64,000 nt of DNA from Symbiodinium sp. CCMP2592 (Eukaryota; Sar; Dinophyceae; Suessiales; Symbiodiniaceae), in NCBI GenBank assembly GCA_905221615.1, contig CAJNDT010005834.1, positions 67,501 to 131,500 of the forward strand. Direction: 5' to 3'. Below the pieces are notes generated by a model. The model saw only the letters and a program-made list of their open reading frames with translations, was not told where the DNA came from and did not search any database. Shown piece by piece: positions 18 to 60,300 of the stretch. Position numbers and translations under genes: made by a program. How positions within the stretch are numbered: the first letter of the stretch is position 1; every line of letters starts with the position of its first letter.

Positions 18-8021
<8,004 letters not shown>

Positions 8022-18072: not shown

Positions 18073-18204
18073 GGTATACTTGGGGGATCATGGGACTTAG
18101 TAAGTACGGTTATAGGTGCCTTAAGTGGGGTTATAAGTAATTGTAAGTATAGTTGCCTTATTTATAACTCTAGTTACTAAGTCCCATAACCCTTTAAGTA
18201 TACC
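18073..18204. mobile_element. TIR element, family A
   Basis: Arms of the type TACTTGGAGGATCATGGGAC...GTCCCATGATCCTCCAAGTA, with internal GGTTATAAGTA words in both orientations. Other copies: 21121-21254, 29862-29957 (partial), 31194-31316, 33314-33440, 40244-40369, 44113-44239, 44967-45067, 47110-47335 (interrupted), 47536-47665 (interrupted). The most frequent family in the window. Confidence 0.85.
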
Positions 18205-21112: not shown

Positions 21113-21332
21113 GTAAGGGCTACTTGGAGGGTCGGGACTTAGTAAGTATGTGGTAAGTAGACTTATAAGTCCCCCAATAGGGGCGCTAAGTAGGGGCTTT
21201 GATGCTTCTAAGTCTCTAAAATAACTACTTACTAAGTCCTCTGATCCTTCAAGTAAGGGTTACTGAATCCATGTACGGGCCGGGTCCTTTCAGGGCTCCT
21301 TGAAAGGCACTGAACGTGAATAATGACCCAAA

Positions 21333-23526: not shown

Positions 23527-23607
23527 GGTTGATGATATAAATCCTGCATTACCCATAATAAGGAACATACAGGTCATTAGGGTAATGCAGGATTTATATC
23601 ATCAACC
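23527..23607. mobile_element. TIR element, family C, perfect 28-bp arms
   Basis: GGTTGATGATATAAATCCTG... at 23527-23554 is exactly inverted at 23580-23607, leaving a 25-nt loop. Other copies: 34646-34735, 38977-39061, 43452-43648. Confidence 0.9.
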
Positions 23608-31075: not shown

Positions 31076-31346
31076 AGGCTTCGTTAAGGGTAACTTGGGG
31101 GGCCCACACAGGCATAGATGAGCTTTTGGGCTCTTGCCGTCTGTTAAACCGGGAGCGTCGAGATCCTGAAATGAACGTTATAGGATCCTCTTATACTTGG
31201 AGGATCATGGGACTTATTAAGTAGGGTTATAAGTACCTTAATTTGGGATGTAAGTATTTATAAGTATGGTTACCTTAGTTATAAGCCTAGTTACTAAGTC
31301 CCATGACCCACTAAGCAGGAGTCCCCTTGACAGGAACCCTTTACAG

Positions 31347-35852: not shown

Positions 35853-36419
35853 CGTTCATACGTATTATATAGATACATTCATATAGACATGCTTGCATGC
35901 ATGTAGTTTGTAAGTATTTTTCGCATGTATGTATGCAAGTGTGCATGCACATGGTCATGCATCTGTATACGTAGATGTATATGCACATGTATATGCATGT
36001 GTGAGCGTTTGTTTGTCGATGTACGTGTAATATTATGTATGCGTATCTGTATATGAAAAGGTATATGTACGTCCAGCAGCCCAAGAGGTTGAACAGCGGC
36101 CCAGTTCAAGCAAGGAATATCTACACTTCACTATATTACACCCCAAAGCACACCAAACCCCTAAACCGTGAAGCACCCTAAACCTAAACCCATAAACCCT
36201 AAACCCCCAAACGCTAAAGCACCCTAAAACCTCAAGCTTATGTGCAGTTTACAATCATGGTCTAAGCTCTTGGATTGGGGCCCTTAATAAGACACTTTTA
36301 CATACCAGAGGGGCTTAAACACCGGTACTAGAACTTTGGTTGGGGACACTACGGAATCATAGTACTAACTGTTTGGGTCCGATCCAGAACCGCAAACATG
36401 AAACCAATCCAGACCCCAG

Positions 36420-36479
36420 GTAAGCCCGAAACCGGAAATCGACGTCAACCGCAAGGACTGCGCCGAGCCTCTGTGGAAA
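36420..36479 (+). CDS. Exon, 20 codons
   Basis: GACCCCAG acceptor; VSPKPEIDVNRKDCAEPLWK; donor GTGGCC. Followed by an open FLHGGAYQ segment before GTGTTG that may be a further micro-exon. Confidence 0.5.
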
Positions 36480-37077
36480 GTGGCCTGACAATTCGGGAGG
36501 CAAGGAGTTCTTGCATGGCGGCGCATATCAGGTGTTGTGTTGGCTTCAGGAAGTCGGATGGAGGGTTGAGGGCTAAGCATTCCGGTATGGCTTGGGATCT
36601 GAATCTGTACTGTCTTAGGCTTAGGGCTTATAGGGCGCCATGGCTTCAGAGTTTACGGCTTGCAGTTGTGGCTTTCGGATAGCTCTGTGGTCCACGGTGG
36701 CAGGACAAGCAATCCTATCATTGGCCTCAAAGGGGTCCCTATTTAGGTACTTCAAGGCTTAAGTATATACCATATGAGCGCATGGAGTTTTAGGACGTAG
36801 GTTCTGGTAGTTGAAGGTAAGGCCTAGACCCCACCAGCAGAGCCCCCCCGACTACCCCCTTGTTGGAGCCGAAGTACCCATAATTAGGACCGTAATGCCT
36901 GTTTCAAAGGGTACTTTGGCGGTGCTGGTAATAAACCCCCCTAAACCCCAAACCCAAAACTTACCCCAAACCCCAAACCCTAAACCCTAAATTCCCCAAA
37001 CCCCAATTCCTAAACCTCAAATCCAGAACTTCAAACGCCAAACCGTAAACTGTGGACTCTAAGCTCCAAGCCCTGAG

Positions 37078-37160
37078 CTTCCGAAGGTCCGCCAGCTGTC
37101 GGTAGCTGAACTGGAGAGGTGGCTCGAGGAGCAGTCGTGCAGGGTTTTGAAGCTCTTCGA
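37078..37160 (+). CDS. Exon, helical
   Basis: CCCTGAG acceptor; LPKVRQLSVAELERWLEEQS, then CRVLKLFE; donor GTTGTTTT. Confidence 0.6.
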
Positions 37161-37981
37161 AGTTGTTTTAAGGGCCCCTTGAAGCGTTTGTGTGTGTACA
37201 GGGGTTACCAGAACAAGGGTACTATAGGATCTGGGGGCTTAGGGTTTAGTTTGGCGTGTTGGGTAACATGAAGGGGGTTCAGGGTTTCCCTCAAGGCTCC
37301 TTTAGGGGTTCTAGACTCTAAACTGGTTCTACTGCAGGGTTTAGTGGTTTCGGGCTTTAGGGGTTTAGGGGCCAGGGGGTTCTAGTGCTCAACTGTTGGG
37401 GATTACTGTAGGTTTTGCGGTTTGGGGTTTGGGGAGGTTTACGTGGCAGTTCAGACAGAGTTTGAGGTTTGGGAGTTTAGCGGGTTGCAGAGTTTCATGG
37501 TTTCGGGTTTATGGGTTTGGGGTCTTGTAGTATGGGGGCCGTAATAATTACCTATACTATTTCGGGGGTTCCTCAGTCCTTAGTATAAGTACAGCATAGT
37601 ATACCCCAAAACCCTACTATTCTAATTATTGAGGCGTCTATATTAGGGCTTCGGGCGTTGAGGGTTCCAGGGTTGACGGTCCTCGGTTGTCAGGCTTCAA
37701 GGCCTTCGGGTTTAGGGTTTAGGGGTTCAGGGTTGTTTAGGGTTTAGCGCCTTCGGGTTGAGACCCTCAAGTTGACCCTGCACCATGTTTTTGGGGAAGC
37801 AGCTACCCTAATGCCCTGAGGCTCCATGTACCCATAAAGTATCCGGTTGAGGGCGTGGGTTTAGGGTTTAAGGCTTAGTTTTTTTTCGGTTGAAGGTATA
37901 TACTTTGGGCTAGCTTAAGGCCACAGTGTATTAGGGCTTGGCAGTTGCGTTTTTCGAGCGGAAGCCGGGCAGTTGTGAAAG

Positions 37982-38068
37982 GAACCACCTGCAGAGGGGA
38001 ACCATGCAAGGAGCAGCGAAGACAACGTGCAACAAGAACCTGCTCGAGGACTCTGTTGCAGCCCCCAC
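37982..38068 (+). CDS. Exon
   Basis: GTGAAAG acceptor; PPAEGNHARSSEDNVQQEPA or, one frame over, MQGAAKTTCNKNLLEDSVAA; donor GTGAGTGG is a good match. Confidence 0.45.
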
Positions 38069-38260
38069 GTGAGTGGCGCTGATGTTGGATGTTTACGTAA
38101 GGCGTGTGGCGGTGGCAGTGGGCCCTCCTGGGCTTGCTAGAGGTGTCTATTGCAAGTCGTTCGCAGCCAAGCCCACATACAGGTGCTATGCATTTATGGC
38201 ACCTGACATCCTCTGCCCTACACTGACGATATTTACAAGCGAACTTGGGTTCTCGTCCAG

Positions 38261-38321
38261 CGCGGAGAGGCTCGAAGGCAGCCAAGGCAAGTTCCCAACC
38301 GCCGACCGTCCAAGCATCGAA
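38261..38321 (+). CDS. Exon
   Basis: TCGTCCAG acceptor; AERLEGSQGKFPTADRPSIE; donor GCCCTCAG (GC). Upstream 38102-38260 is also open in this frame (VAVAVGPPGLARGVYCKSFA). Confidence 0.45.
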
Positions 38322-38462
38322 GCCCTCAGACCCTAAAGCCTAAAACCTGTCTAAAGCCCTAATCCCAGAGGGTCCAAGTAGCAAAATAGTGGGATATTAG
38401 GTCCTACTATTTGGGTACTTGCACCCTCTAGGAATGCTGCTTGAACCCTCAAGCCCCAAAAG

Positions 38463-38561
38463 TCACATCCCCGAAAGCGTGAGGAGGAGCAGCTGCGGAA
38501 GCAGCGCCGGCGTAGCCGCCGCGATGACGAACGCGGGCAGAAGCGGCTGGAAGAGGAGGAG
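38463..38561 (+). CDS. Exon, highly charged helix
   Basis: CAAAAG acceptor; 33 codons, KREEEQLRKQRRRSRRDDER then QKRLEEEE; donor GCCTTACA (GC). Likely coiled coil or single alpha-helix. Confidence 0.6.
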
Positions 38562-38925
38562 GCCTTACACTCAATTATTACCTGGGCCCCCAAAGTATGC
38601 ACAATAATGGCCTTTTATAGGTATTGGGCCATTATTTTACCTACTTTTGAGGGGGTTAGGTACGGGTTCCTTGAAAGGGTTTTTTTCGGGCTTTGGTGGG
38701 TTCTACAAGGGGTGTTTACAGCCTTTGAAGGCTCCCAAAGATCCAACAGTCAGGTGCTTGGGCTTAGGATAGTTACTGTAGTCGATTTGTAGCTTAACCC
38801 TAAACCCTTAAACCCGCAACCCTAAGAGTACATGACAATGATCAGGTACTTGGAGACTTAAGGTTTGTTTCAGGGTGAGATGTGTAGACTCTACAGAACC
38901 AAAGGACCCTAAAATTTCTCAGAGG

Positions 38926-39115
38926 GTCCATATATACTACCATTACGGAATTGGGTCCCAAAAGACAGTTCCTACTGTTGATGATATAAGTCCTGCATGA
39001 CCTTAACTATGGGAATTATGGTATATTCCTTATTGTCGGTAATGCAGGATTCATATCATCAAGGGTACTATGGTATATACTTCCACAATGGTCGTCTACA
39101 TGGACCCTCTTGGTA
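38926..39115. mobile_element. Nested TIR elements: family C inside family K
   Basis: Family-K arms at 38926-38976 and 39062-39115 enclose a family-C hairpin (38977-39061). Confidence 0.75.
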
Positions 39116-39164
39116 CTTAGACCCCTTGAGACGCTGAACCCGAAGACCCTCGACTCGAAGCCAG

Positions 39165-39240
39165 GATGGTCAGTGGTGGAGCCCAGACCAGGAGGAGAGA
39201 ACCGAGCACCTTTGCCGCCGCTGCTCCGCTCAGCCGCACG
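39165..39240 (+). CDS. Exon with CxxC
   Basis: AAGCCAG acceptor; DGQWWSPDQEERTEHLCRRC, then SAQPH. A family-B element begins about 10 nt downstream. Confidence 0.5.
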
Positions 39241-39646
39241 GAAAAAATTCTGAGTTTTAGGTGTACCTTATTTTGGGGTCCTTATGATAGGGTTCCTACC
39301 ATTTATATAGGGTACTATATAAGAGTCCCCTATTGTCGGAAACTCCCATTTATGCAGTGGCCCTACGCTGAGAATCCATGTGTCCATACAAGGATCCTTT
39401 AAGTTTTCACGTAAGGGTTCCATAAGGGTGCAGGCTTAAGGGTTTAGGGCTTCGGGACAAGATGTCTACTTACTGCTAGGTAGATACATCAGCCTCTGGT
39501 TTGAGCTTGATCGAAACAGGTACTCTAAATATCAGAGGTACGAGCAAGGCAATACCAGTAGGCACTCTACACAGGCCTATTTGGAACCACATGAGACATT
39601 GAGCCGCCGATCAACCCTGTAGGAGCCACAAGCTCTCTGACAACGC

Positions 39647-39805
39647 ATGCTAGCCCTGATGAACTCTGATGTATTGGACGTGATCAAGAAGCCCAAATGC
39701 CTCTTACTTGTCATCGACTGTAATTTCAACAGGGTCGTTCAACTGAGGTTGACACCCGGTGCCAAGTTCTGTGCAAGCTGCGGTGCGAGGCTCAGATGTT
39801 TGTGA
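39647..39805 (+). CDS. Zinc-ribbon-like coding segment, 52 codons if unspliced
   Basis: ATG preceded in frame by TGA; MLALMNSDVLDVIKKPKCLL, then LTPGAKFCASCGARL before TGA. The KFCxxCGAxL motif is a common single zinc-ribbon knuckle. The distal part could instead be an exon starting after CAACTGAG (39750). Confidence 0.5.
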   Translation: MLALMNSDVLDVIKKPKCLLLVIDCNFNRVVQLRLTPGAKFCASCGARLRCL

Positions 39806-39985
39806 AAAGCTGGCCGGCTTGTTTGGGGTTGAGGGTTTTTAGGGTTTGGGGTTTAGCCAGACAGACGGAGCCCTTGAACAAGACCCTACATATCTCATCC
39901 TAAATGTGAGGACTGGCAAGGGCGAGCCTTCTAGCAATTTAAGCATCTACCCTCGCTTTAAAGAGGATGTAGGTCTATCGGCCAG

Positions 39986-40017
39986 AAGCCGTGACCATTA
40001 ACAAGGAAGCCAAGACT
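39986..40017 (+). CDS. Micro-exon
   Basis: CGGCCAG acceptor; AVTINKEAKT; donor GTTGGG. Confidence 0.4.
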
Positions 40018-40370
40018 GTTGGGTTTGCAGGTTCAGGCCAAGCCATCTAGGTTCAGGTTCGTTGTTTGGTGCTCGTTTTGTTGGAGTTCATTCGTTTTAC
40101 GGTATTAATGCTTTAGGACGTGGGAATCTGGGTAATCCTAGAGCACAGATCCTCAGCCTCAGAGAGATTTTGAACCGAACCTCCAAAATCCTAAAGTCTA
40201 AACTCGAACCCCACCCGGCTTCAAACCCCACCCTGCACTTCCCTACTTAAAGGATCATGGGACCTAGGAACTAGGGTTATAGCCAAGGTAATAAAACTTA
40301 TAACTACTTATATCCCCAATTAAGGTACTCTTATAACCCCACTTACTAAGTCCCATGATCCTCCAAGTAG

Positions 40371-40477
40371 CTCGCAAGCCGTGCAGTAAACCGCGCACCC
40401 CGTTTGCTACGACCACTTCAGGCGCACCCGTTGACGGGCAGCCAGAGGAGACAGAGGCGACCATCGACACCATCCAG
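40371..40477 (+). CDS. Exon sandwiched between family-A elements
   Basis: The acceptor is CCAAGTAG, the last bases of the family-A element at 40244-40369. RKPCSKPRTPFATTTSGAPV, then GQPEETEATIDTIQ; donor GCTTGCTTGGAGGG runs directly into another family-A arm. Thr/Pro-rich linker. Confidence 0.55.
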
Positions 40478-40480
40478 GCT

Positions 40481-40745
40481 TGCTTGGAGGGTCGTCGGAC
40501 TTAGCAAGTAGTTCTATTTTTTGTAGAGTTACAGGTGTCATAACCCCAATTAGGGTCCTTCTTAAGGACTTAGTAAGTAGTTCTATTGTAGTAGAGTTGT
40601 AAGTGTCATAAACCCAAGTTAGGGTCCTTCTTAAGGTACTTCGACATGATAAGTGTCATAACCCCAACTAGGGTCCTTCTTAAGGTACTTGTAAATGATA
40701 AGTGTCACAACTCCAATTAGGGTCCTTTTTAAGGTACTTATAAGT
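40481..40745. repeat. Family-A arm followed by four tandem internal units
   Basis: Around GTGTCATAACCCCAATTAGG / GGTCCTTCTTAAGGTACTT the same ~45-75-nt unit occurs four times with small changes. Confidence 0.7.
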
Positions 40746-40860
40746 CTACTTATTACCTACATCCTTTCCTGGGCCTCAGTCCCAAGAGTCGCAGATGAGT
40801 CTTTTCTTCTAGGGCTTGCCTTTTTTCCTAAACCCGGAAGAGAAGGCAAACTGTGGATCA

Positions 40861-40960
40861 CCTTAACCCTGAAGAACCTACCGTTTTAGGATTCCTTCAT
40901 CTGATTTCCTTATATAAGTCCTTAACAGGGTAGGTTATTCCGGGTTGAGGCAACACCCAC
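40861..40960. mobile_element. TIR element, family H
   Basis: CTTAACCCTGAAGAACCTAC... inverted as ...GTAGGTTATTCCGGGTTGAGG. Other copies: 50222-50310 and a half copy at 20936-21020. Confidence 0.7.
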
Positions 40961-41020
40961 ACAAGGCCCATCATTCTGAATGCTTTTAACCCGGCAGGCC
41001 GAAGGGTTTTAGGATCACAG

Positions 41021-41078
41021 GCCCCCGCAACCACCGAGACCATTGTTGTGTTTAGGGCCTGTGCCCTCTGCTCAGACC
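41021..41078 (+). CDS. Exon with CxxC
   Basis: GATCACAG acceptor; APATTETIVVFRACALCSDP; runs straight into a family-G arm (CCTGGGAGGATCC). Confidence 0.5.
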
Positions 41079-41916
41079 CCTGGGAGGATCCAGGAAGCTT
41101 TTAAGGGATCACGGGACACAATAGGAGTGGTTCTAAGTACCTCGCGGGCCGTTTAGCACCACTAATTGAGGGCCCTATACTGAGAAAAAGGGTACTTTGT
41201 AGGAACCCTTGTAGGGATCTACTCTGTAGATCCTCTTGCTGAGCAGCCCCAGCAGAGGATCGCATTTTGAGGACCTGAAACCATAAACTCTAAACTGATA
41301 CCAAAGGGTCCTAAGTAACTGTATGGTAGAATGTAGGGTTTCTATAATAGAAATTGCTTGTATGATTTTGGGAAGTATCCCCCATAGCAGTACCAAGGAC
41401 CCTTTGGCTGTCCGTGGTTTGTGTTTGGGTTGAGGGTTTCGTGGTGCCAGGCTCATCAGCGTCTGGCGTTCTGAGTGAATTCACTTCGTTTTCGGTGCTT
41501 AACCTCAGGGCCCATGTACCCAAACAGTATATGCTTTGCCCTTAAAGTGTGCTTATGCAGGTATTTTGGGTATATACTGTTTGGGTGCATTAGCCTTAGG
41601 ATTCTGGTTTTGGGTATGTTGTTTCGCGAGTTTAGCCCAAAAGGTCCTAAGTATCTATATGGTAAAATGCAGGGTTTCTAGGTTGGGAAATACTATTATT
41701 GTTTGGGGAAGTCCCATAGCAGTACCTGGGACCGTTTGGGTAGTGCTAAGGCTGTGGGGAGCTAGTCGCTAAAGTGAGCAGGTCCTCAGCTTTTGAAACG
41801 ATTGGCATCTACCTGCCCCCCTCTCAAAGAACGACCCTTGTCGGATTCCAGTTATGACCACGGTGTATATGTATGTGTATATATATATATACATATACAT
41901 ACATACGTCCTCCAAG

Positions 41917-42063
41917 ATTTGATATGTTCGCGACCGTCCCGACTGCTCGTGACAGCACGTCTTGCTCCAGACGCCTCCGACATCCTGCTGAAGTATGTTG
42001 TTCAAAGACGCAAGAATGCTGCACATGCTTTTTTTGGCATGTTCACAAAAGACATGAATTCTT
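41917..42063 (+). CDS. Exon
   Basis: CTCCAAG acceptor; SRPSRLLVTARLAPDASDIL, then KNAAHAFFGMFTKDMNS; donor T|GTGAGGGC. Spliced to the 42123 exon it gives NS-FFASHRPKPA in frame. Confidence 0.6.
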
Positions 42064-42122
42064 GTGAGGGCGTGTCTTGTTCGAGAAACATCAAACATCC
42101 TGTCTGCATGTAGTCACTGTAG

Positions 42123-42215
42123 TCTTCGCCAGCCATCGACCGAAACCAGCATCGGGATTCGACCAGGTAGAAGTCCCTCCGCTTGCGGTGATCGTACATG
42201 AGCAGGATCTGTGCC
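42123..42215 (+). CDS. Exon
   Basis: CACTGTAG acceptor; PKPASGFDQVEVPPLAVIVH, then EQDLC; donor C|GTGAGTTT, near-consensus. The preceding intron is only 59 nt. Confidence 0.55.
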
Positions 42216-42348
42216 GTGAGTTTGCTTTCTGGTTTTGGGTTACCAGGCCTAGAGTAATGGCAGTTCACTGCAATCTAGATTAGCTTCCATGGGTTAGTCT
42301 ATGTTAGGTCTAGTAACACTCGTGGCAGTTCAAAATATGCGGAAGCAG

Positions 42349-42419
42349 GAGAAGGAACTACCCTGGAGGATTCAGGAATCCCCCATTCCGTTTCAACGGA
42401 TGCTTAGCAGCCAACCGAC
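42349..42419 (+). CDS. Exon
   Basis: GAAGCAG acceptor; EKELPWRIQESPIPFQRMLS; donor GCGAAATT (GC). Confidence 0.5.
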
Positions 42420-42928
42420 GCGAAATTTAGGGTATTTTAGTACACCCCTAGCATACTCGACAGGGCAGGTTTTTGGTGTAGGGTACTCCAGAACAGTCCA
42501 AACAGAATCGCTCACAATCACAGAGTGCCTGCCGTGTACTTTCAACACGCATTGAGATCCTCCTGGCTCTAGAAAGCTCGAGACGTACAAAGACCCTTAG
42601 CCCTAAACCATAAAAGCATAGACCACGAATCGTCGTTTCGGGTCAATGCCTTGGCTAGCAGTTTCCAAAGCTACAAGTGGGATTGTCCCAGCCTGAAGGG
42701 TTATGTGGGCTTTCGAGTTAAGGTTGAAGGTTAAGGCTTCGACTATAGACACCCTACTTGCTAGGTATGAAAGTTTTAGACCCTGATCCCTTCAACCTTC
42801 CACCTTCCGGACTGGAAGCAGTTGATTTCAGTAGTTAGCGCGAAACTCCTTGAAGTGAGCTTCCTGAACCCACTAAATGATTGAATCCTGAATCGCCTGA
42901 AACCTTCAAGAATGCTTAAAGTCGACAG

Positions 42929-42990
42929 GAAAGCCGAAATGAGCCGATTTCCCGAATTTCGCAAACTCTACAAACTCCTCTACATCCTTT
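42929..42990 (+). CDS. Exon
   Basis: GTCGACAG acceptor; KAEMSRFPEFRKLYKLLYIL; donor T|GTAAATGC. Confidence 0.5.
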
Positions 42991-43261
42991 GTAAATGCTC
43001 ATGCTTTGAAGACCATACTGCACCTTGTAGACCCAAGCGCCACCCTAAACCCCAAACCTTCTGCATTCCTGCTAGAAGCCAGTACAAAGCCATATGACAC
43101 CCTAAACGTCAGCCCCAGGACCTTTTCCCCAAACCCTATAAACCCGAAGCCTCAAACCCTAAACGCGAAATCCCAAACCCCGAAACCCGAATCCCTACAC
43201 CCCAAACCCTAAACGAGAAACCTCAAACCCTAAACCCGAAGCCCCAAATCCTAAGTCCAAG

Positions 43262-43311
43262 AGCCAGGAGACGACCGCAAAGCCTCCAACGTCAACTCGA
43301 GCAGATGAGTT
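43262..43311 (+). CDS. Exon before the 92-nt introner-like intron
   Basis: GTCCAAG acceptor; SQETTAKPPTSTRADE and two bases (TT) of the next codon; donor GCTTACC. Confidence 0.6.
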
Positions 43312-43403
43312 GCTTACCGTTGGTTAGTAGGGAATAGAAGAATGGTAGTAATAGTAGTTATATTTATACCTCATTCCTCCATTCCCTACTAACCAACGCT
43401 AAG
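43312..43403. mobile_element. Intron that is a TIR element (family M)
   Basis: GC-AG intron of 92 nt. CGTTGGTTAGTAGGGAAT at 43318-43335 is exactly inverted at 43381-43398, leaving six bases before and five after. Removing it joins DEL-LIVVHASDELP in frame. Confidence 0.75.
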
Positions 43404-43451
43404 GTTGATCGTCGTCCACGCCAGCGACGAGCTGCCGGACTGCCAGCTACG
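43404..43451 (+). CDS. C2-domain-like exon
   Basis: GCTAAG acceptor; LIVVHASDELPDCQLR resembles the first strand and loop of C2 domains (hydrophobic-x-V-x2-A-x2-LP-x-D/C). The donor GCTGATGATATAAATCC is the first base pairs of a family-C element. Confidence 0.6.
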
Positions 43452-43648
43452 GCTGATGATATAAATCCTGGGGTTCCTTTAAAGGGATCTATGAGGATAC
43501 CCTTTAAGGGGGTTCCTTTAAGGGATCTATAGGGTTTTAGGGTTTAGGGATATAAATCTTGCATTACCCATCATAAATAAGGAATATACCATAATTATTT
43601 CCCATAGTTCAGGGTCCTTAAAGTAATGCAGGATTTATATCATCAACC
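43452..43648. mobile_element. TIR element, family C, with internal insertion
   Basis: The left arm is interrupted after ATATAAATCCTG by about 95 nt of CCTTTAAAGGGATCTAT-type and TTTAGGG-type sequence, after which ATATAAATCTTG repeats and the arm resumes. Right arm 43624-43648. Confidence 0.7.
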
Positions 43649-43956
43649 GTACTGTCAAGGGTTCCTTCAAGGGATTTTTGTTTCTGGTTGAGTTCGGGTT
43701 TCGGGATCTTAGGGTTTCTTTGATTTAATGCAGGGTCTTAGGGCTAGGTTCCTTTGAGGACTCCTGCAAATGCTCTTCAAGGGGTTTCGGTAAGGGTTGC
43801 CACAGTGATTATAAGGGGTTTATGATAAAAGGGCGCAGGCTAAACAATAATTTTCTCATGCTTGAGGAATAAGATTATCGACTGTTCCGTCTTCTAGATT
43901 ATGCAGCATTATGCATTCCGGCTTCAAGCTTTCAGGTTTCATGTCTTCCTTTGCAG

Positions 43957-44055
43957 ACTGTAGTAAGGGTGGTCGTGGATGCATTGCCCTTTGGAGTATC
44001 ACCTCAAAACTTCGGGTTCGGGGCCTGGGATTTGGAGATTTGGCGCTTGTAGTTT
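43957..44055 (+). CDS. Possible exon
   Basis: CCTTTGCAG acceptor; TVVRVVVDALPFGVSPQNFG; a second frame is also open. Donor unresolved. Confidence 0.4.
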
Positions 44056-44242
44056 GGGGCGGGTGGAAGCCCGAACTCTTAAACTCGAAGGAAGTGTGGT
44101 CAATCTGAAATTCCCTTACTTGGAGGATCATGGGACGTAGTAAGTAGGGTTAGAAGCATCTTAACTGGGGTTTCAGGAAATTATAAGTATAGTTACCTTA
44201 ATTATAATCCTAGTTACTAAGTCCCATGACCCTTTAAGTAAG

Positions 44243-44330
44243 GAACGCCAAGAGCCCCCAGCCTCGAAAGGAGTACGGTACATCTTCCTGGGCGGACACG
44301 TTGGACAGCCCTGCACCGGCCAGCTACGAG
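44243..44330 (+). CDS. Exon directly after a family-A element
   Basis: The acceptor TTTAAGTAAG is the element's terminal sequence. NAKSPQPRKEYGTSSWADTL, then DSPAPASYE; donor GTCAACTT. Confidence 0.6.
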
Positions 44331-44888
44331 GTCAACTTCTTATCACTTCCCCTGGGTTTGGGGCTTGGGGGTTTAGGCCTTAGGGTTTTAAGTGTTTGGG
44401 CTGAACGGCTTAGGGTTTGTTTTGGGGTTATATAGGTCGCAGGACTTCGGGACTTAGGGGTTATTTACAGGTTTTTGGGGTTAGGGATTGAAGTTTTAGG
44501 GTCCAGAGTTTCAGAGGTCAGTGTTGATAGGGTTCAGGATCTAGGGCCAGGGTATTTACAGTGTTTAGGGTTTAGGGTGCACTATAGGGTCTGAGTAATT
44601 ACTATATTATACTTATTCCCAGGCCATATTCGATTCTAAGTATTCAGGGTCACCTGCATAGTGGTTGAGGATTTTGGGTTTAGGGTGTTACGCTTCACTC
44701 GATGTAGGAGAGTCGAAGATTCCAGGCGTTTGGGGCTCTGCTGCTGTTGTTCAGCCGGTCCTCTGGTTTTTCAAATTTAGGGTTGTTGGATTCAGAGTCT
44801 GGGGTGATGTTGTTCGGTTTAACTTAAACCTTAGGGTTTGGGGCTTAGGGTTAAAAGCTTGCCGCCTCAAGAGCAGGATTGGTTGAAG

Positions 44889-44940
44889 GAAAGTGACTTC
44901 TCTGTCCACAACCCACCTTTCGACCTTTTCGCTCCCTCAA
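44889..44940 (+). CDS. Exon
   Basis: GGTTGAAG acceptor; ESDFSVHNPPFDLFAPS; donor uncertain. Confidence 0.5.
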
Positions 44941-45189
44941 GGATTCCTTGCATGGAGCCCTCATACTTAAACGGTCATGGTACTTAGTAACTAGGGGTAT
45001 TACTGATAATTACTTACAACCCCAACTAAGGTACCTATAACCTTACTAAGTCCCATGATCCTCCAAGCGGGTAGTTATCAAAATTGAGGTCCTTTTTGAA
45101 CCTAAATAATAGGTGCCGTACTATAACAGGGACCCAAAAAAGCACCATAATTTTGACAGCCACCCAAAAATGCACAAGCATACTCGCAG

Positions 45190-45227
45190 AACCGGGCGGT
45201 TCTGGGACCCCTGAAGGAACCCTTGCA
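45190..45227 (+). CDS. Micro-exon
   Basis: ACTCGCAG acceptor; NRAVLGPLKEPL; donor GTTACTTT, then a family-B arm remnant. Confidence 0.4.
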
Positions 45228-45265
45228 GTTACTTTCGGAAACTCCCCTATCGTAGTAGCCTTATA

Positions 45266-45384
45266 AGGTACCCAGAGACTCCAATATCCCTTAATTAAGG
45301 AATATACCTTAAATTATGATAAGATCCCTAATATGATTTAAGGTATATTCCTTAGTTAAGGGATATTGGAGTCTCTGGGTACCT
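45266..45384. mobile_element. 119-bp near-perfect palindrome (family L)
   Basis: 49-bp arms with one mismatch (45266-45314 against 45336-45384) and a 21-nt loop. The ends read AGGTACCCAGAGACTCC. Confidence 0.9.
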
Positions 45385-45400
45385 AGGACCCTTTGGGAAG

Positions 45401-45475
45401 CGAGGCGCCTGCTGCCGCCTCCCCGAGCGAGCTCTGGCCGGAAAGGGGTGCAGAGGAGGCGCCTTTGGGGATTCC
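45401..45475 (+). CDS. Exon, Ala/Pro/Glu-rich
   Basis: TTGGGAAG acceptor 16 nt after the family-L element; EAPAAASPSELWPERGAEEA. Confidence 0.5.
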
Positions 45476-46001
45476 CTTTTCGGGTTTAGGGTTTTAGGGT
45501 TTAGGCTTTAGGGGTTTAGGGTTTATATAGGGGTTTAGGGCGTAGGACCATTATGCTTCCAAAACTCCAAAGCCTGTAATTACATCCGATTCAGCTTTAT
45601 CGTAGCCCCTTTTAGGGACCCTTGTACCATGCACATCCGTTTCGCAACCCGTAACCCTGTACGATCCTAGAAAAGCTCACAAATTCTAAGCCTTCTCGGC
45701 CGCACACCCTGCACAAACCCACTCCTCACATGCAACCTTACTTATTAAAACGGTTTGACGTTTAGGGTTGCTTAGGGAAGCTACGTTTCTGAAAGGCTGA
45801 TAACTATTGTGCCCAATGATTTTGGATCACATCCTGTGCTTGCCTTTGCAAGGTAGAAAGTATCTATGTGAATGTGTATGCTCGAAACCCTCACAAACCT
45901 TAAAGTTGAAAGCTAAGGTTAACTTTGCAATTTAAGGTTTAGAAGGGTTTATGGGTTTAGGGTTAACTCGAAAAAACAACACATCGAAAAACGACTGCCA
46001 G

Positions 46002-46070
46002 GGCCTCCGCCCGCTAGACAGCGATGAGCGGAATCAGCGCCTCCTACGGCTTCTGGAAGGATCGAAAGAA
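46002..46070 (+). CDS. Exon, 23 codons
   Basis: CTGCCAG acceptor; GLRPLDSDERNQRLLRLLEG; donor GTTCCC. Confidence 0.6.
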
Positions 46071-46230
46071 GTTCCCTAAATCCTAAACATAATATAAGAG
46101 CCTTGATAATTAGACTACGGTTTTGGCGACATTATGCTATAATTACAACGTAACAAGGACCCCCCAAAAATAGTGCAGGTATATATTTAGGCCCCTAAAG
46201 TAGCCAACGAATTCCATGTCTCTTCTGTAG

Positions 46231-46345
46231 GCTTCTTTGATCGGGTGCTTGATGGCGGATGTTGAGATGCTGCCGGCTAGTGGTTTGCCGAAGAAAACTT
46301 CGTTGCAGGGCCCTTTATCGCAAAAGGGATTGCAATGGGATGCTG
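46231..46345 (+). CDS. C2-like exon
   Basis: TTCTGTAG acceptor; ASLIGCLMADVEMLPASGLP, then KKTSLQGPLSQKGLQWDA. The A-x2-LPASG turn is C2-like. The 100-codon minus-strand frame over it is treated as a shadow. Confidence 0.5.
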
Positions 46346-46518
46346 GTTGTTGTGGGCTTTGCCGTTGTTTGCTGGATAGATGAGGGTGGCCTCCAGGCTT
46401 TTGAACTGGACTGACTTTTCTCAGGACAGTTCTTACGTTGCTCACTGATTTTGTGTTTGGGGTTCGAAGTTCAAAGTTTAGCCTTCAAGGTTTATAGGGG
46501 GGCTTTTTTGTTTGAAAG

Positions 46519-46558
46519 GCCACCGCGAATCGGAAGGAGCACCTGCGACCGGTGGAAG
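46519..46558 (+). CDS. Micro-exon
   Basis: TTGAAAG acceptor; ATANRKEHLRPVE; donor G|GTAGGC. Confidence 0.5.
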
Positions 46559-46935
46559 GTAGGCTAAAGCCCTAAACCCGTTCCGGTCGTAGGTCCCTCA
46601 CGGTGCTGCTTGATGGGAGTTTCCGAAAATTAGGGGGTATATACCTTATTTGGGGGTCCGAAAAATAAGGATCCTACTATTTAGGGTACTATATTAGGGT
46701 CCCCAATTTTCGGAAACTCCCTGATTTTGTAAGTTCAGGAGTAGTCGTGAGTTACCAGATCACGTAGGAAGCAAGACGGCAATTGCAGCAGTTGCTGACT
46801 TGTGACGTACAAAAAGCAACCACAGGCGAACCCCAAGTGTATTATACAGAAGCCTGAATAGTAACGAATATTATTCCTCATATACTGGGGTTTAGAGTTT
46901 AGGGTTTTGGGTTTAGGACCCTAAACCCTTAAGCC

Positions 46936-47037
46936 CAAACCCTAAAATACACCCCCAAACGTTAAAGCCCCTGCATTACATCGGACCCTAAACCCTAAAA
47001 TACACCCCAAAACAGTAAAGCCCCTGTATTACATCGT
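46936..47037. repeat. Two-copy tandem repeat of ~50 nt
   Basis: CCCTAAAATACACCCC...AAAGCCCCTG...TTACATCG occurs twice in direct succession with few changes. Confidence 0.8.
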
Positions 47038-47052
47038 GTCGATGCTCGCGAG

Positions 47053-47108
47053 GACCCTATGCATCTCTCCCAAAGTCGGCGGCGCCGCGGCTGGATCCCT
47101 GGCAAAAG
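47053..47108 (+). CDS. Exon before a family-A element
   Basis: CTCGCGAG acceptor; DPMHLSQSRRRRGWIPGK or, in another frame, SPKVGGAAAGSLAKG; donor GCTCAC; the element starts within 10 nt. Confidence 0.45.
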
Positions 47109-47535
47109 GCTCACTACTTAAAGGGTCATGGGGCTAAGTAGGGATCTATAGGGGTTCTATATTTAAAGGGATCTATAGGGGTTCTAGAAGGGGGTTTAGG
47201 GTTACTTAAAGGGTCATGGGACTAAGTAACTCGCGCTATAACTACTGTAAGGTAACTATGCTTTATGATTACTTATAGCCCCAATTAGTGTACCTATAAC
47301 CTTACTTGCTTAGTCCCATAATCCTCCAAGTATGACTCTGAAACGATCTGGAGCCCCAAATAGGTCTGTCATCGGGCGGTTGAAGAATGCATCCATAAAC
47401 AAACCCTAAACCCCTAAACCCTAAACCCTAAACCCTAAACCCCTAAACCCCTAAACCCTTAAACCCTAAAAAAAGTGTTGGTCGTGGCCTCAACAACTGA
47501 AGCCTCGGTTCTGGCGACAGTCTTGTGCTGCATGT

Positions 47536-47665
47536 ACTCAAAGGGTCAGTAACTAGGGTTATAATTAACGGTTTAGGGTTTAGGGTTTAGGGTTAATAAT
47601 TAGGGTAACTATACTTACAATCACTTATAACCCCGATTCGGGTACTTGCAACCTTACTTAGAAGT
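47536..47665. mobile_element. Family-A element carrying a telomere-repeat insertion
   Basis: Between GGTTATAATTAA and TAGGGTAACTATACTT, where other copies are continuous, lie three to four TTTAGGG units followed by TTAATAATTA. Confidence 0.75.
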
Positions 47666-47693
47666 CGTGATTAAGTTTTCAAGTTCGGTTCAG

Positions 47694-47779
47694 GGATGCC
47701 CATGAAGCTTCCAGCAGGCCCAAGTCTTCCAAGCTTCGCGGATTGAATGTCGCCGGTGCGGACTGGTGCCTCCGGCACT
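47694..47779 (+). CDS. Exon
   Basis: CGGTTCAG acceptor; DAHEASSRPKSSKLRGLNVA, then GADWCLRH; donor GTGAACCC. A second frame with IECRRCGLVPPAL is also open. Confidence 0.45.
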
Positions 47780-48171
47780 GTGAACCCCTCTTCTAACCCA
47801 CTTCCTGAATCGTCTGATCCTTCATATGTCCTTAAACCCTATGCACACCTGTAAACACCTTCTGGAATCTTTGTAAGGTCATGAAAACACACTGTCAAAT
47901 CACCACAGCCCAGCCCATAATATTACATAGTCCCAGAACAACTATATATACTGTATAGTAAACGCCTCACAAATCCGCTGTAAATCATCCGGCCCTTGAG
48001 CCTAAACCCTACACACTAAAACACACTCACACGAGTACAGCCAGCATGCACCCCAAAAGTCTACCCATAGGCCCCAGAGTAGTTCCTTTTTGGTGTTACC
48101 TTATAGGATTCTACATATGAACCCCAAAAAGGAACCACTGTGGGGCCTATGGCTAAACCCTAAACCGTAAG

Positions 48172-48229
48172 CGTCCGCTGCAGCTCTCAAGCTTCGGCGC
48201 GCGACCTCCTGTGGACATCGGCTTGCCAG
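48172..48229 (+). CDS. Exon
   Basis: ACCGTAAG acceptor; RPLQLSSFGARPPVDIGLP; donor GCAGGATG (GC). Confidence 0.5.
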
Positions 48230-48545
48230 GCAGGATGAGGGTTGAGGGTTTAGGGCTCCTTTAAAGGGATCTATAAGGGTTCCTTAAAGGGGTCTATAAG
48301 GGTAGCATTAGGGTGGTTGAGGGTTCCTTTCGGGTCCTCAGTACCTGCCTGGTAGAAATTAGGGATGGTCTGTGTAAGTATCCCCTGTACCACCTAGAAC
48401 CTAAACCCTAAACCTAAACCGCTATACCGTCTAAACCCTAAACTTTTCAGTCCCTCAACCCGCTTATAGATGCCTTTTAAAGGAACCCTTATAGATCCCT
48501 TTAACGTTGCCCATATAGGTACTTAGGATCCTTTGGGATGACCAG

Positions 48546-48595
48546 GTCCAAGACCTATCGTCGAGAAGGGCGGCAAGGCTCCCCGTCTCGTCGAC
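48546..48595 (+). CDS. Short exon
   Basis: ATGACCAG acceptor; VQDLSSRRAARLPVSS or KTYRREGRQGSPSRR; donor C|GTGAGGG. Confidence 0.45.
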
Positions 48596-48668
48596 GTGAG
48601 GGTTGTAGGCTTCGGGGTGTAGGGCTAGGGTTTAGGGGATTAGGGTTCCTTTAAGGGCCCCTTTCAAG

Positions 48669-48671
<3 letters not shown>

Positions 48672-48710
<39 letters not shown>

Positions 48711-48745
48711 ATATTGTATGTGTGTGTGTATATATATATATATAT
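48672..48745. repeat. (CT)n, (GT)n and (AT)n runs
   Basis: CT run to about 48708, then TGTG and TATA. Confidence 0.9.
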
Positions 48746-48874
48746 TAGGGGAACTATGGGGCTTAAGCGCTCTAGGGTTTACGGTTTGGGGTGTAGGGTT
48801 GAGGGTTTATTGCTCAGAAGGGTTCAGGGTTTATGGAGCTTGAGGCTTAGAGTTGAGGGTTCTGCGTGTTTCAG

Positions 48875-48950
48875 AACCAACACGCCTGGTCATCCATGCA
48901 TAACCGAGGTGCCCCCCACAAAGTTCTACTCATCGTGCCGGTTGCAAGAG
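48875..48950 (+). CDS. Exon
   Basis: TGTTTCAG acceptor; NQHAWSSMHNRGAPHKVLLI, then VPVAR; donor G|GTTCCCAC. A family-D element begins 10 bases into the intron. Confidence 0.6.
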
Positions 48951-49387
48951 GTTCCCACACCCCAAGGGTCCAAGTACCTAATAATCATATACTCTCCAAC
49001 GTCCTAACCTACATAACCACTATCCTAGAACCGAGTACCTGATTATTGGGTCCTTTGGACTCTTGGGGATCCTGGTACGGCCAGTTGTCCTAATCCCGAG
49101 GCCTCGGGGTCAATAGATTAATGTGTGGTACCCATGGGCCCCATAGTAGTTCCTTTTTGGGATTACCTTATAGGGTTCTACATATGAACCCAGTAGCCTG
49201 AAAGGAACCTGTACATACGGGGCAATATTGATGTTCTTATTGTGAACACGTTTTTCGCATACTTATTATCGTTACAATATTCTTACATTTTTAGATTGAT
49301 GCTCTTAGGTTTGCTCTTAGCTTCTATTAGTATAATGAGATGATGATGGTGACTATTGTGATTCCGCTGCGACCATGCGCATTGGAG

Positions 49388-49441
49388 GCCGAAGGCGGAG
49401 ATGGATCTCAACCCGCTCCCGGTCGTTGGGCGGTCTCGCAG
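49388..49441 (+). CDS. Exon
   Basis: ATTGGAG acceptor; AEGGDGSQPAPGRWAVSQ, or from 49394 AEMDLNPLPVVGRSR; donor GTGGTGAT. Confidence 0.45.
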
Positions 49442-49641
49442 GTGGTGATAGTATCAGCACTGGCTTGGGGCTTTCAGTTTCTAGGGCTTGGAGTGTAATC
49501 AGGGTCCTTGTCGCATTGAAAGATATGGGTTTCATCAAGGATTGATGTTGAGTCTTGAGGGCACGGGGCGTCCGGTCCTGAGGGTGCGGGGTGTCCGGGA
49601 TTGATCAAGTCACGCTGACCTGAGATATAATTTGCCTCCAG

Positions 49642-49682
49642 TTGACTTGTCTTTGTTTCCGGATGCCGACGTACCGCCCCCG
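49642..49682 (+). CDS. Micro-exon
   Basis: GCCTCCAG acceptor; DLSLFPDADVPPP; donor GTACAGCC. Confidence 0.4.
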
Positions 49683-49751
49683 GTACAGCCCTGAAACTCA
49701 ACATTCATCATCCCGCAAAACCCTAGCGCCTGTGCTGATGAATGCCGTAAG

Positions 49752-49792
49752 GCTGCAGTACGGTTCTTGGCGAACGCGGGAGCACATGATCT
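49752..49792 (+). CDS. Micro-exon
   Basis: GCCGTAAG acceptor; AAVRFLANAGAHDL; donor GTAACCC. Confidence 0.4.
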
Positions 49793-49868
49793 GTAACCCT
49801 AAATCTGAAACCCCGATGTTTTCAGATCAATTATCTGTCAGATCCTATATAAACCTAGACCCCTCCAG

Positions 49869-49905
49869 TCCGCTGGGCTCCATTCGGCAACATATCTTAT
49901 CGAAG
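49869..49905 (+). CDS. Micro-exon
   Basis: CCTCCAG acceptor; SAGLHSATYLIE; donor G|GTCAAG. Confidence 0.4.
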
Positions 49906-50101
49906 GTCAAGTCTATCCCAGCACAATCCAAAAGTGGAATGTTTAAGCTTTATAGGGTGTTTAAGGGTTCTATAGGTAGAGCCACGGTTTAGCGTTTAGG
50001 GTTCTATAGGGTTCTACACGGTGTCTTAGGTCAGGTATTATGTTTCTATACGATTTCATATGTCAGTTGTTATGGTTTCTAGCTCTGTCATTGGTTTGCA
50101 G

Positions 50102-50195
50102 GCGGCCGCGCGGGAAGTTGTGCACACCTCCTCACATTTCGGCGTGGAGGCCGCAGAACCTCAGATCATTGGACCACAATCGCAGGCCCCAAATC
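50102..50195 (+). CDS. Exon, 31 codons
   Basis: GTTTGCAG acceptor; AAAREVVHTSSHFGVEAAEP, then QIIGPQSQAPN; donor C|GTAAGC. Confidence 0.6.
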
Positions 50196-50316
50196 GTAAG
50201 CCCTATAGACCCTAAGCCCAACCTTAACCCTGAAAACCTACCGTTTTAGAGTTCCTTATTATGATATCCTTATATAAGTGCGAAAAAAAGGTAGGTTGTT
50301 CAGGGTTAGGGAACAG

Positions 50317-50373
50317 AATATCAAGCCACGGAAGGTCCCGAGGATCAAAGGAAGCTGAACAACTGGAGTCTTC
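50317..50373 (+). CDS. Exon
   Basis: GGGAACAG acceptor; YQATEGPEDQRKLNNWSL; donor GTGTATAG. Lies right after the family-H element at 50222-50310, whose terminal region includes the acceptor neighbourhood. Confidence 0.5.
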
Positions 50374-50486
50374 GTGTATAGGCATAATTTCGTGCAGCCC
50401 CTGATCGAGACATTTGCATTTCAAAAATTCTCATTCCCCTGTCTTATAATTTCCCTAAGCCCTAAACCTTAAACTCTTGCATTCAG

Positions 50487-50530
50487 GACCGGGGACCCTG
50501 AAGTACGACTCCTCGGCGCTGAACCCTGGA
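50487..50530 (+). CDS. Micro-exon
   Basis: GCATTCAG acceptor; TGDPEVRLLGAEPW; donor not fixed. Confidence 0.4.
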
Positions 50531-50540
50531 CTCTAAACCT

Positions 50541-50669
50541 AAAGCAGGCAGTAATGATACCGTCTTGGCAAGACATGGCAAGACTAATTTCAAGCAGGCA
50601 GTAAGGATACCCTCTTGGCAAGATTAATTTCAAGCAGGCAGTAATGATACCCTCTTGGCAAGACTAATT
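50541..50669. repeat. Three-copy tandem repeat
   Basis: AAGCAGGCAGTAATGATACC...CTTGGCAAGACTAATT occurs three times in a row, the first with a 10-nt internal duplication (GGCAAGACAT). Confidence 0.85.
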
Positions 50670-50782
50670 GAACCCTAAGCCCGTAAACCCTAAACCGCTC
50701 CTAAACGCCGAAACCCTAAGCCCAAAAACCTTAAAGCCCTACACACCCTTAATCCCTAAGCCTCTATGCCCGCTTGCCGCAG

Positions 50783-50823
50783 GTCTTCCGCCGCTTCTTA
50801 CGCGTGCAGAAGGAGCAGACGAG
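50783..50823 (+). CDS. Micro-exon
   Basis: TTGCCGCAG acceptor; VFRRFLRVQKEQT; donor GTTGTTAG. A TIR element (family N, 50841-50907, 15-bp perfect arms AAAGACCTACCTCTT) follows. Confidence 0.5.
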
Positions 50824-51165
50824 GTTGTTAGTTCTGCCGAAAAGACCTACCTCTTGAGGGGTCCTTATTATGGTTTCAAATTACGTTCCATAAAGAGGTA
50901 GGTCTTTCTGGCTACAGGTAAGCATTGTATTTTCCTTGGAGATTTGAGTTTAGAGTTTAAGACTTCAGGGTTTAGGGGTTCAGAGTTTAGGGGTTGCCAT
51001 TTTCCTCATACACGGCGTCGGTTTTGCTAGCAATTAGGATAGCCTTACTCCGGCTACTCCCTAGAAGGCTCTAATTTTTAAGTTTAAGCCGCCCCCTAAA
51101 CCCTAAACCCTGAACGCCCAAAACCATACTATAGAAGGCTTTTGGGCTATTTGGAGCCTTAGAGG

Positions 51166-51271
51166 GACTTGAAGCCTTGTTCGCGGAGATCGCACAAAGC
51201 CACGCCCAGGCATTTTCCGTGTGCCCGCTGCAGAATGGGACCCTGTTCCACGGTTCATGCGGAGTTTGATG
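51166..51271 (+). CDS. Exon
   Basis: LEALFAEIAQSHAQAFSVCP, then LQNGTLFHGSCGV; open to TGA. A second frame (IFRVPAAEWDPVPRFMRSLM) is also good, so the frame is unresolved. Confidence 0.45.
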
Positions 51272-51353
51272 GTCAGGTGGATTTCCTACGCTGTGAGTTG
51301 CAGCAACATGGCGCATGCTTTCAAAGAAGCGGGCTGATCTGAGCCTGCCAAAG

Positions 51354-51534
51354 GAACCTGGCCCAAGGAATGCCGATGCCGTTTGGACGGCGCAGATGGC
51401 AGATATGGATATAATGGATCAGGCCGCTGGTAGCCAGACCGCAAGCTATGAAAGACGCATTCCTCGGGTTGGTCCGAACATGCTTCCGCTCCGGGGGAGG
51501 GGGTGGAAGAGTTTCGGGAGCTACCAGATCCACT
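51354..51534 (+). CDS. Exon, 60 codons
   Basis: TGCCAAAG acceptor; RNADAVWTAQMADMDIMDQA, ASYERRIPRVGPNMLPLRGR, then WKSFGSYQIH; donor GCCCGAGG (GC). Family not recognised. Confidence 0.6.
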
Positions 51535-51718
51535 GCCCGAGGAGTAGTAATAGCAGCCACTTTGTAGTGCTTATAGATCTGTACGATTATACTACAGTAT
51601 ACCCCAAGGCCCTACTCTGTGAAGAGTGCCTCGTGCAGTATACTAGGACCCAGAGTACGTCCCTATTCCCTTTTTTAGGGTTCAGGTTCCCTTCGAAGCC
51701 CCCTTGACCCGAAAAGGG

Positions 51719-58920: not shown

Positions 58921-58996
58921 AGCTAGTAGTAGAAGTATTATTATAATTATTATTATTATATTTAGTAGTAGTACTAGTCAGTCAGAGTCAGTCAGC

Positions 58997-59054
<58 letters not shown>

Positions 59055-59192
59055 ATAGTAGTAGTAGTAGTAGTTTAGTAGTAGTAGTAGTAGGAGTAGT
59101 GGTTAGCGTTAGTAGCAAGCAGTCGATTCACAGTTTAACAGTACTGGCAGTAAGTTAAGTAGTATTTTAAATACAGCAGTAGTAGTCGTAGT

Positions 59193-59244
<52 letters not shown>

Positions 59245-59326
59245 TAGTAGTAGTAGTAGTACTAGTACTATTTTTAATCAAAAGTAGTAGTAACAGTAGT
59301 TAGTAGTAGTCTTAGTAGTAGTAGTA

Positions 59327-59366
<40 letters not shown>

Positions 59367-59455
59367 CGTAGTAGTAGTAATAGTAGTAGTAAAACAAAGT
59401 AGTAGTAGTAGTAGTAGTAGAGAAAGTAGTCGTAGTAGTAGTAGTAGTGGTTAGT

Positions 59456-59510
<55 letters not shown>

Positions 59511-60300
59511 TAGTAGTAGTCGTAGTAGTAGTAGTAGTAGTGGTTAGTAGTAGTAGTAGTCGTAGTAGTAGCAGTAGTAGTAGTAGTAGTTACTAGTAGT
59601 GGTTGAAGCAGTAGTCGTAGTCGTAGTAGTTAGTAGTAGTGGTAGAAGCAGTAGCAGTAGTACTTAGTAGTAGTAGTAGTACTACTACTAGCAGTACTAG
59701 CAGTAGTAGTAGTAGTAATTACTAGTATACTAGTAATAGTAAGTAGTAGTAGTAGCAGTAGTAGTAGTAGTAGTAGAAATAATAATACGTGGTAGTAACT
59801 GAGCAGGAGTAGTAGTAGTAGTACTACTACTACTAGTAGTGGTAGTAGTAGTAGTAGTAGTAGTAGTACTTAGTAGTAGTAGTAGTAGTATTTCTAGTAG
59901 TAGTAGTAGTAGTAGTAGTCGTAGAAGTAATAGTAGCAAGTAGTACAGTACTAGCAACCGGCAATCAATGGGTAGAAGTCGTAGTAGGAGTTAGTCTTAG
60001 TAAGTAGCAGTATTAGTAGTACTAGTTAGTAGTAGTAGCAGTAGTAGTAGTAGTAGAGTAGTAGTAGTAGTTGTAGTAGTAGTAGCAGTGGTACTTAGTA
60101 GCAGTATTATTAGTAGCAGTAGTGGTAGTAGTAGTAGTAGTAGTACTAGTAGTATGTAGCAGTAGTGGTAGTAGTAGTAGTACTAGTAGTATGTAGCAGT
60201 AGTAGCAGTAGTAGTAGTAGCAGCAGTAGAGGTAGAAGTACTAGTTAGTAGTCCGACTACTAGTACTTCTACCTCTACTGCTCAGTCGTAGACGTAGTTA
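58921..60300. repeat. (AGT)n block with a terminal perfect hairpin
   Basis: About 1.3 kb of AGT triplets with many interruptions. Near its end GCAGTAGAGGTAGAAGTACT... (60223-60245) is exactly inverted at 60259-60281. Poly-Ser and poly-Thr/Leu frames are artefacts. Confidence 0.9.

Follow-up and report, generated by a model that had tools for sequence, protein, structure and literature searches.

Introners in Symbiodinium have been described as elements with 4-bp target site duplications (TSDs) and with terminal inverted repeats (TIRs) in which the 3′ splice site lies, the 5′ splice site being derived from the TSD (Gozashti et al. 2022, PMC9860276). TIR introners with a donor from a 4-bp TSD are thus already known in this genus from that account, and the family described here is either a further member of the group or one already catalogued. 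The nearest likeness is to Symbiodinium microadriaticum introner family 1, for which the same source gives a 4-bp TSD, TIRs, a 3′ splice site in the element, and a 5′ splice site in the TSD; the likeness is one of description, not of sequence, and the example of family 1 spans 115 nt by its coordinates, against a 91-bp element and a 95-nt intron here. That study also reports introners enriched in genes in 161 of 175 genomes. Roy et al. 2023 (Curr Biol), cited in PMC11453091 for introner-driven intron gain, is said where it is cited to have found many recent introns derived from transposable elements in dinoflagellates, with several families per genome, a picture that our family resembles. Noncanonical donors are common in this lineage: GC/GA-AG introns make up 25 to 74% in Symbiodiniaceae according to PMC11453091, and G(C/A)-AG introns are described in the Symbiodinium rubisco gene in PMC5029490.

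Two further systems are relevant to the comparison. The introner elements of Amoebophrya (Farhat et al. 2021, PMC7789003) resemble our family in being multicopy hairpin introns bounded by inverted repeats and short direct repeats, but most of the repeated introns described there lack conserved terminal dinucleotides, whereas the genic cases here read GT or GA...AG. Miniature inverted-repeat transposable elements (MITEs), as generally understood and as mentioned in PMC7789003, share with our family a short length, TIRs, a TSD of fixed length, and many copies. Unlike MITEs, the present family has TIRs that also hold a branch-site-like motif and an acceptor AG, in both orientations.

In this study, we analyzed one copy of the family in a 64,000-nt stretch of Symbiodinium sp. 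CCMP2592 DNA (the window) and compared it with copies elsewhere in the genome (1.098 Gb searched, in 5383 contigs). A first-pass annotation of the window had claimed an 18-bp perfect inverted repeat, and we found it at 43318-43335 and 43381-43398. The repeat is not a chance occurrence, because its 18-nt arm has 522 exact matches in the genome (253 + 269) and the reversed control has none. It forms the core of longer arms within a 91-bp unit flanked by the TSD GTTG (Table 1), and in a BLAST search with the window copy many genome matches cover query positions 7-97, which correspond to this unit, or a few bases more. As RNA, the element is predicted to fold into a hairpin of -43 kcal/mol (z = -9.5), a value as low as which was reached in 0 of 200 shuffles. 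The right arm reads CCCTACTAACCAACGCTAAG, and the left arm presents the same TACTAAC-plus-AG module on the opposite strand. TACTAAC is the textbook branch-site sequence. UACUAAC is also named as a branch-site sequence in PMC13004596.

Table 1. Features of the family copy in the window and of the sequence on either side of it
Feature	Position	Strand	Basis
Putative exon piece upstream, reading ...ETTAKPPTSTRADE; start approximate	43262..43308	+	Joined-frame codon score
Predicted 95-nt GT-AG intron (element and one TSD copy)	43309..43403	+	Sole register ending in AG
TSD GTTG, left copy; would supply donor GT	43309..43312	+	Sequence and TSD analysis
TIR element, 91 bp, non-autonomous, MITE-like	43313..43403	.	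86/91 positions equal to family consensus
Left TIR, 32 nt, 91% complementary	43313..43344	.	Inverted-repeat analysis
TACTAAC, mirror copy in left arm	43323..43329	-	Sequence and consensus
Right TIR; final AG, putative acceptor	43372..43403	.	Inverted-repeat analysis
Branch-site-like TACTAAC, with its putative branch A (43392) 11 nt from the intron end	43387..43393	+	Sequence; consensus spacing
TSD GTTG, right copy	43404..43407	+	Sequence and TSD analysis
Putative exon piece downstream, LIVVHASDELPDCQLR; end approximate	43404..43451	+	Codon score, island strand bias

The family was sampled by exact arm match or by best BLAST score, and all counts are therefore biased toward close copies. A first copy set contained 61 full pairs, reduced to 58 when nested duplicates were removed, with 13 partial copies left out; L001-L008 were excluded from the arm-match loci because L009-L015 cover the same places. 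The 129 loci retrieved, together with the window, gave 136 full elements, from which one with repeated flanks and then one with short flanks were dropped (leaving 135 and then 134). A perfect 4-bp TSD lies just outside CTTAC...GTAAG in 81 of the 134 copies, the window included, compared with a mean of 1.9 and a maximum of 8 over 1000 shuffles. Among the first 58 copies, a 4-bp repeat was present at the offset of the element border in 38 and in no more than 2 at each remaining offset (0 to 8). The element is exactly 91 bp long in 96 of 134 copies, and median identity to the consensus is 96.7%; the window copy carries 5 changes from the consensus over its 91 positions, among them one by which the terminal GTAAG reads CTAAG. 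TACTAAC is intact in 86 of 96 copies in each arm, a proportion biased upward by exact-arm sampling. The family is a young, non-autonomous, MITE-like DNA transposon of 91 bp with a 4-bp TSD: its TIRs and constant-length TSD are those of a MITE, and its many similar copies are dispersed through the genome as those of introners are. Element length drifts upward through repeat-expanded copies, L041 and L064, which are lengthened by expansion of TTACTACCATA or TAG repeats; L041 has a further arm nearby.

Most copies do not appear to lie in genes. The TSDs of the family are AT-rich, and most insertions would therefore offer no GN donor; in the flank-blind sample only 13 of 112 TSD strand readings begin with G. 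Of the flank-blind copies with a perfect TSD, 47 of 56 look noncoding, and the 9 with coding-like flanks were scored at a cut-off reached by 10% of random segments. On this count the family resembles an ordinary MITE, and the copies that become introns are a minority. These proportions also favor the reading that the family is sometimes intronic while the copy in the window is a plain MITE in noncoding DNA, with neither an exon nor splicing at this locus. We consider this unlikely, although it deserves more weight than the other alternatives below, and we return to it with the window flanks.

An association of G-starting sense TSDs with coding-like flanks (12/23 versus 7/58 among other copies, p = 3e-4; antisense TSDs starting with G, 5/23 versus 4/58 in the same BLAST-including sample) was withdrawn as a product of sampling bias. 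The BLAST sample favors G-starting TSDs because the query carried the window's GTTG flanks, and among BLAST-sampled copies such TSDs number 12 of 24 read in the element-forward direction and 2 of 24 in reverse. The corresponding figures for the flank-blind sample are 4/9 coding-like versus 4/47 others for the sense TSD (p = 0.017) and 4/9 versus 1/47 for the antisense TSD, an association that GC content and uncertainty about the strand can explain.

The position of the element relative to its TSD bears directly on the boundaries of the intron. There are five equivalent registers in which one TSD copy plus the element could be excised, and in the window only one of these ends in AG; it starts with GT. 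The likely intron is thus a GT-AG intron of 95 nt whose donor would come from the TSD and whose acceptor would come from the element end. Removing it yields the codons ...GAT GAG TTG ATC GTC... and restores the presumed preinsertion sequence, and the same rule of removal is free of gaps against uninterrupted paralogues at other loci. The first-pass annotation had instead proposed a GC-AG intron of 92 nt at 43312-43403 that joins the flanks in frame. The frame is indeed kept, as it is with 95 nt; the GC-AG boundary and the length are probably wrong, as they ignore the TSD and would leave one codon more than the preinsertion sequence. GC donors do occur in dinoflagellates, and introners that alter mRNA length are described in PMC9860276. 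However, the uninterrupted paralogues at the sites compared fit removal of the element plus TSD with a GT or GA donor, and we regard the 92-nt intron as very improbable.

Evidence that the family can act as introners comes from copies in other genes. Flanks joined across the element were used as genome queries for the window, L038, L071, and L026; of these four loci, all but the window had uninterrupted paralogues, and the gene interruptions there fall at precise positions at which a matching relative has no copy. The first is L038, which agrees with C224:1262087-1262413 at 199 of 204 bases (97.5% identity), the difference between the two being exactly GTAT plus 91 bp. The alignment has 53 columns to the left of the join, and the paralogue, which shares the contig with L038 at a distance of 68 kb, has an open frame of 1054 aa. 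The L038 copy is best read as a GT-AG intron. It belongs to the flank-blind sample but was pursued after its minus-strand TSD had been seen to start with GT, and its choice was to that extent not blind.

At L071, a BLAST-sampled copy with the TSD GTTG as in the window, the joined protein resembles a peptide transporter of the SLC15 kind (PDB phmmer E = 5e-5; no match in Pfam). An uninterrupted paralogue about 28 kb away aligns with its DNA without a gap across the join (156 of 169 bases identical); only 11 columns of this alignment lie to the left of the TSD, and farther left the proteins agree only in part, for example at RK.P.

L026, from the flank-blind sample, is a CobW gene (PF02492) with two copies of the element. 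The Pfam match reaches E = 2e-25 when the sequence is joined over one copy and E = 2e-42 when it is joined over both copies and also to the upstream P-loop exon. Both copies are enlarged by TTTAGGG-like filler, and their sense TSDs read as GAAT and GAGA, which would make them GA-AG introns 195 and 162 nt long; for the GAGA copy an AC...AG reading is also allowed. At both insertion sites the paralogue L139 stays in register, the protein gap falling between them, and L026 and L139 show no conservation of the residues immediately at the second site. Of the 34 matches found in the L026 search, four besides L139 have a single open frame that spans the two sites (C4623, C4960, C259, and C369, the last to residue 124). 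C110:190204, a near-identical copy of L026, matches the same residues as the L026 gene itself and may share its insertions. A fifth genic copy, at the BLAST-sampled locus L133, has the TSD GAAA and lies 11 residues upstream of the start of a Tcf25-like match (PF04910, E = 2.3e-7). L026 and L133 are the 2 of 22 copies with scanned joined frames that scored above the Pfam cut-off. The first-pass annotation had named arm copies confined to intergenic DNA as a result that would speak against an introner; copies lie inside the CobW gene and in other coding sequence.

The paralogues could in principle have lost an intron precisely, by retrocopying or by gene conversion with cDNA, rather than having escaped a gain by the element. 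The uninterrupted CobW paralogues that cover both sites have long open frames (511-989 aa), as processed copies would have. Against this reading, the inserted sequences are elements that have TSDs and differ very little from many other copies in the genome, identity between L038 and its paralogue is still 97.5%, and a loss of this kind would itself record precise splicing. We therefore judge intron loss improbable, and gain by insertion of the element is the reading that we carry forward.

The sense TSD starts with GT or GA in all five genic copies (L038, L071, the two in L026, and L133). Among the flank-blind genic copies the TSD starts with G in three of three, for which the probability by chance is about 0.0016, a nominal value as the TSD of L038 was in view. 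This pattern bears on a mode of excision proposed for Amoebophrya, in which the hairpin guides removal independently of terminal dinucleotides and the sequence of the TSD is irrelevant. A strong stem does place the ends of the element within a few nucleotides of each other, and the Amoebophrya elements with inverted repeats likewise have border direct repeats of 3 to 5 nt (PMC7789003). However, the 5 of 5 copies placed by homology that read GT or GA...AG, a small number in which the GAGA copy also permits AC...AG, stand against 13 of 112 readings with an initial G in the flank-blind sample, and fixed terminal dinucleotides are not a trait of the Amoebophrya type. The conserved branch-site-like motif, moreover, points to the spliceosome. 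Excision guided by the hairpin thus appears highly improbable for this family.

Four of the five genic copies share the orientation of the window element (the GAAT copy judged by eye), and the exception is the CobW GAGA copy, which has no intact TACTAAC. To judge from this copy, the motif is not a strict requirement. These few cases hint faintly at introner use in both orientations and say equally little for a requirement for TACTAAC.

The window copy itself has to be argued by analogy, because Pfam and PDB searches with its flanks gave no match and the genome contained no paralogue of them. A genome search with the joined flanks returned only the window itself, and the joined piece of 34 residues has little power in searches of Pfam and PDB. 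The same limit applies to the first-pass description of the flanks as C2-like, which found no support in Pfam or PDB, 34 residues giving little power for a C2 profile. No gene name, C2-like included, is justified for the host, because it has no Pfam, PDB, or genomic relative. In a wider Pfam scan of all six frames of 41-48 kb and of the plus-strand frames of 31.2-41.1 and 48-57.9 kb, no match was above the cut-off and one was subthreshold.

The evidence that the flanks are exon is statistical. The two pieces are short (47 and 48 nt), and in the best-scoring of the six frames they join to read SQETTAKPPTSTRADELIVVHASDELPDCQL. The codon score of this plus-strand frame is 17.2, against 10.1 for the next best, and only 0.16% of 5000 random 95-nt segments from 30-52 kb score as high; four long unidentified open reading frames of the window and one CobW exon served to train the codon model. 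GC-rich, exon-like islands extend across 36-52 kb, and 20 of 28 score better on the plus strand, the same direction in which the TSD starts with GT. These observations speak against a plain MITE in noncoding DNA. In favor of that alternative, the flanks have no match in Pfam, PDB, or elsewhere in the genome, degenerate TTTAGGG-like repeat occupies 43100-43250 upstream, and the downstream piece runs straight into a second TIR element. We nevertheless prefer the introner reading for the window copy, which is plausible because its sense TSD starts with GT and the best reading frame crosses the join, and which the analogy with the other loci makes likely; the flanks would then be exon. The first-pass description of a recent introner holds well for the family, given its TSDs, TIRs, near-identical copies, uninterrupted paralogues, and presence in conserved genes, and is plausible for the window copy.

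Collectively, the comparisons between copies and paralogues support well the reading of the family as introners. We suggest that the element is one copy of a non-autonomous, MITE-like family whose insertions behave as introners if they fall within an exon and at a suitable site. Transposition, presumably by a cut-and-paste transposase acting in trans, would duplicate 4 bp of the target, and where the duplicated tetranucleotide starts with GT or GA on the coding strand (GC presumably too), the left copy would become the 5′ splice site. The element end would provide the AG acceptor, and the right arm would provide the UACUAAC motif 11 nt upstream, which we take to serve as the branch point. Splicing would then remove the element with one TSD copy and restore the original reading frame, in the window as in the genic copies; this step we infer from sequence. 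Taken together, the family, the TSD-derived donor, and the GT-AG intron at 43309-43403 form an explanation that we hold to be probable. More tentatively, each TIR end may be a complete 3′-splice-site module (UACUAAC plus AG) on both strands, such that either orientation could make an intron if the sense TSD starts with G, and the GT/GC/GA...AG|G boundaries usual in dinoflagellate introns may be fossils of such TSDs. We offer this as a speculative extension that is more doubtful than not.

The L038 pair records the birth of an intron at base resolution, in two paralogues that are 97.5% identical and differ by exactly one TSD and one element. Because they differ in this way, the donor, acceptor, and branch site of the new intron can each be traced to the target or to the transposon. 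Donors derived from TSDs also suggest why dinoflagellate introns tolerate GA at the 5′ splice site.

Other repeats and frames lie around the copy and elsewhere in the window. The second TIR element, at 43448-43651, is unrelated to the family and has TACGGYTGATGATATAAATCCTG arms; it begins at the end of the putative downstream exon piece, and that end is unsure because the element starts at 43448. A 3-bp TAC duplication is possible by eye, relatives occur at 23527-23607 and 38978-39062, and a related element is nested in L042. The run of GC-rich, exon-like islands at 36400-51600, with no Pfam match above the cut-off in the plus-strand frames scanned, is perhaps one intron-rich gene with lineage-specific sequence. 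Short TIR elements of a further dispersed family, whose arms resemble GGGACTTAGTAA and TTACTAAGTCCCAT, are present at 18090-18187, 21135-21239, 31205-31306, 40243-40370, and 47203-47332 and around 44119-44240. In the whole window 52 inverted-repeat pairs passed the filter, some of them simple repeats. Long tracts of TAG/TAC trinucleotides occupy 740-1960 and 58960-60280, where long hairpins are possible, and several long plus-strand open frames (170-369 aa) lie close together at 2434-7163, unlike the short exons elsewhere.
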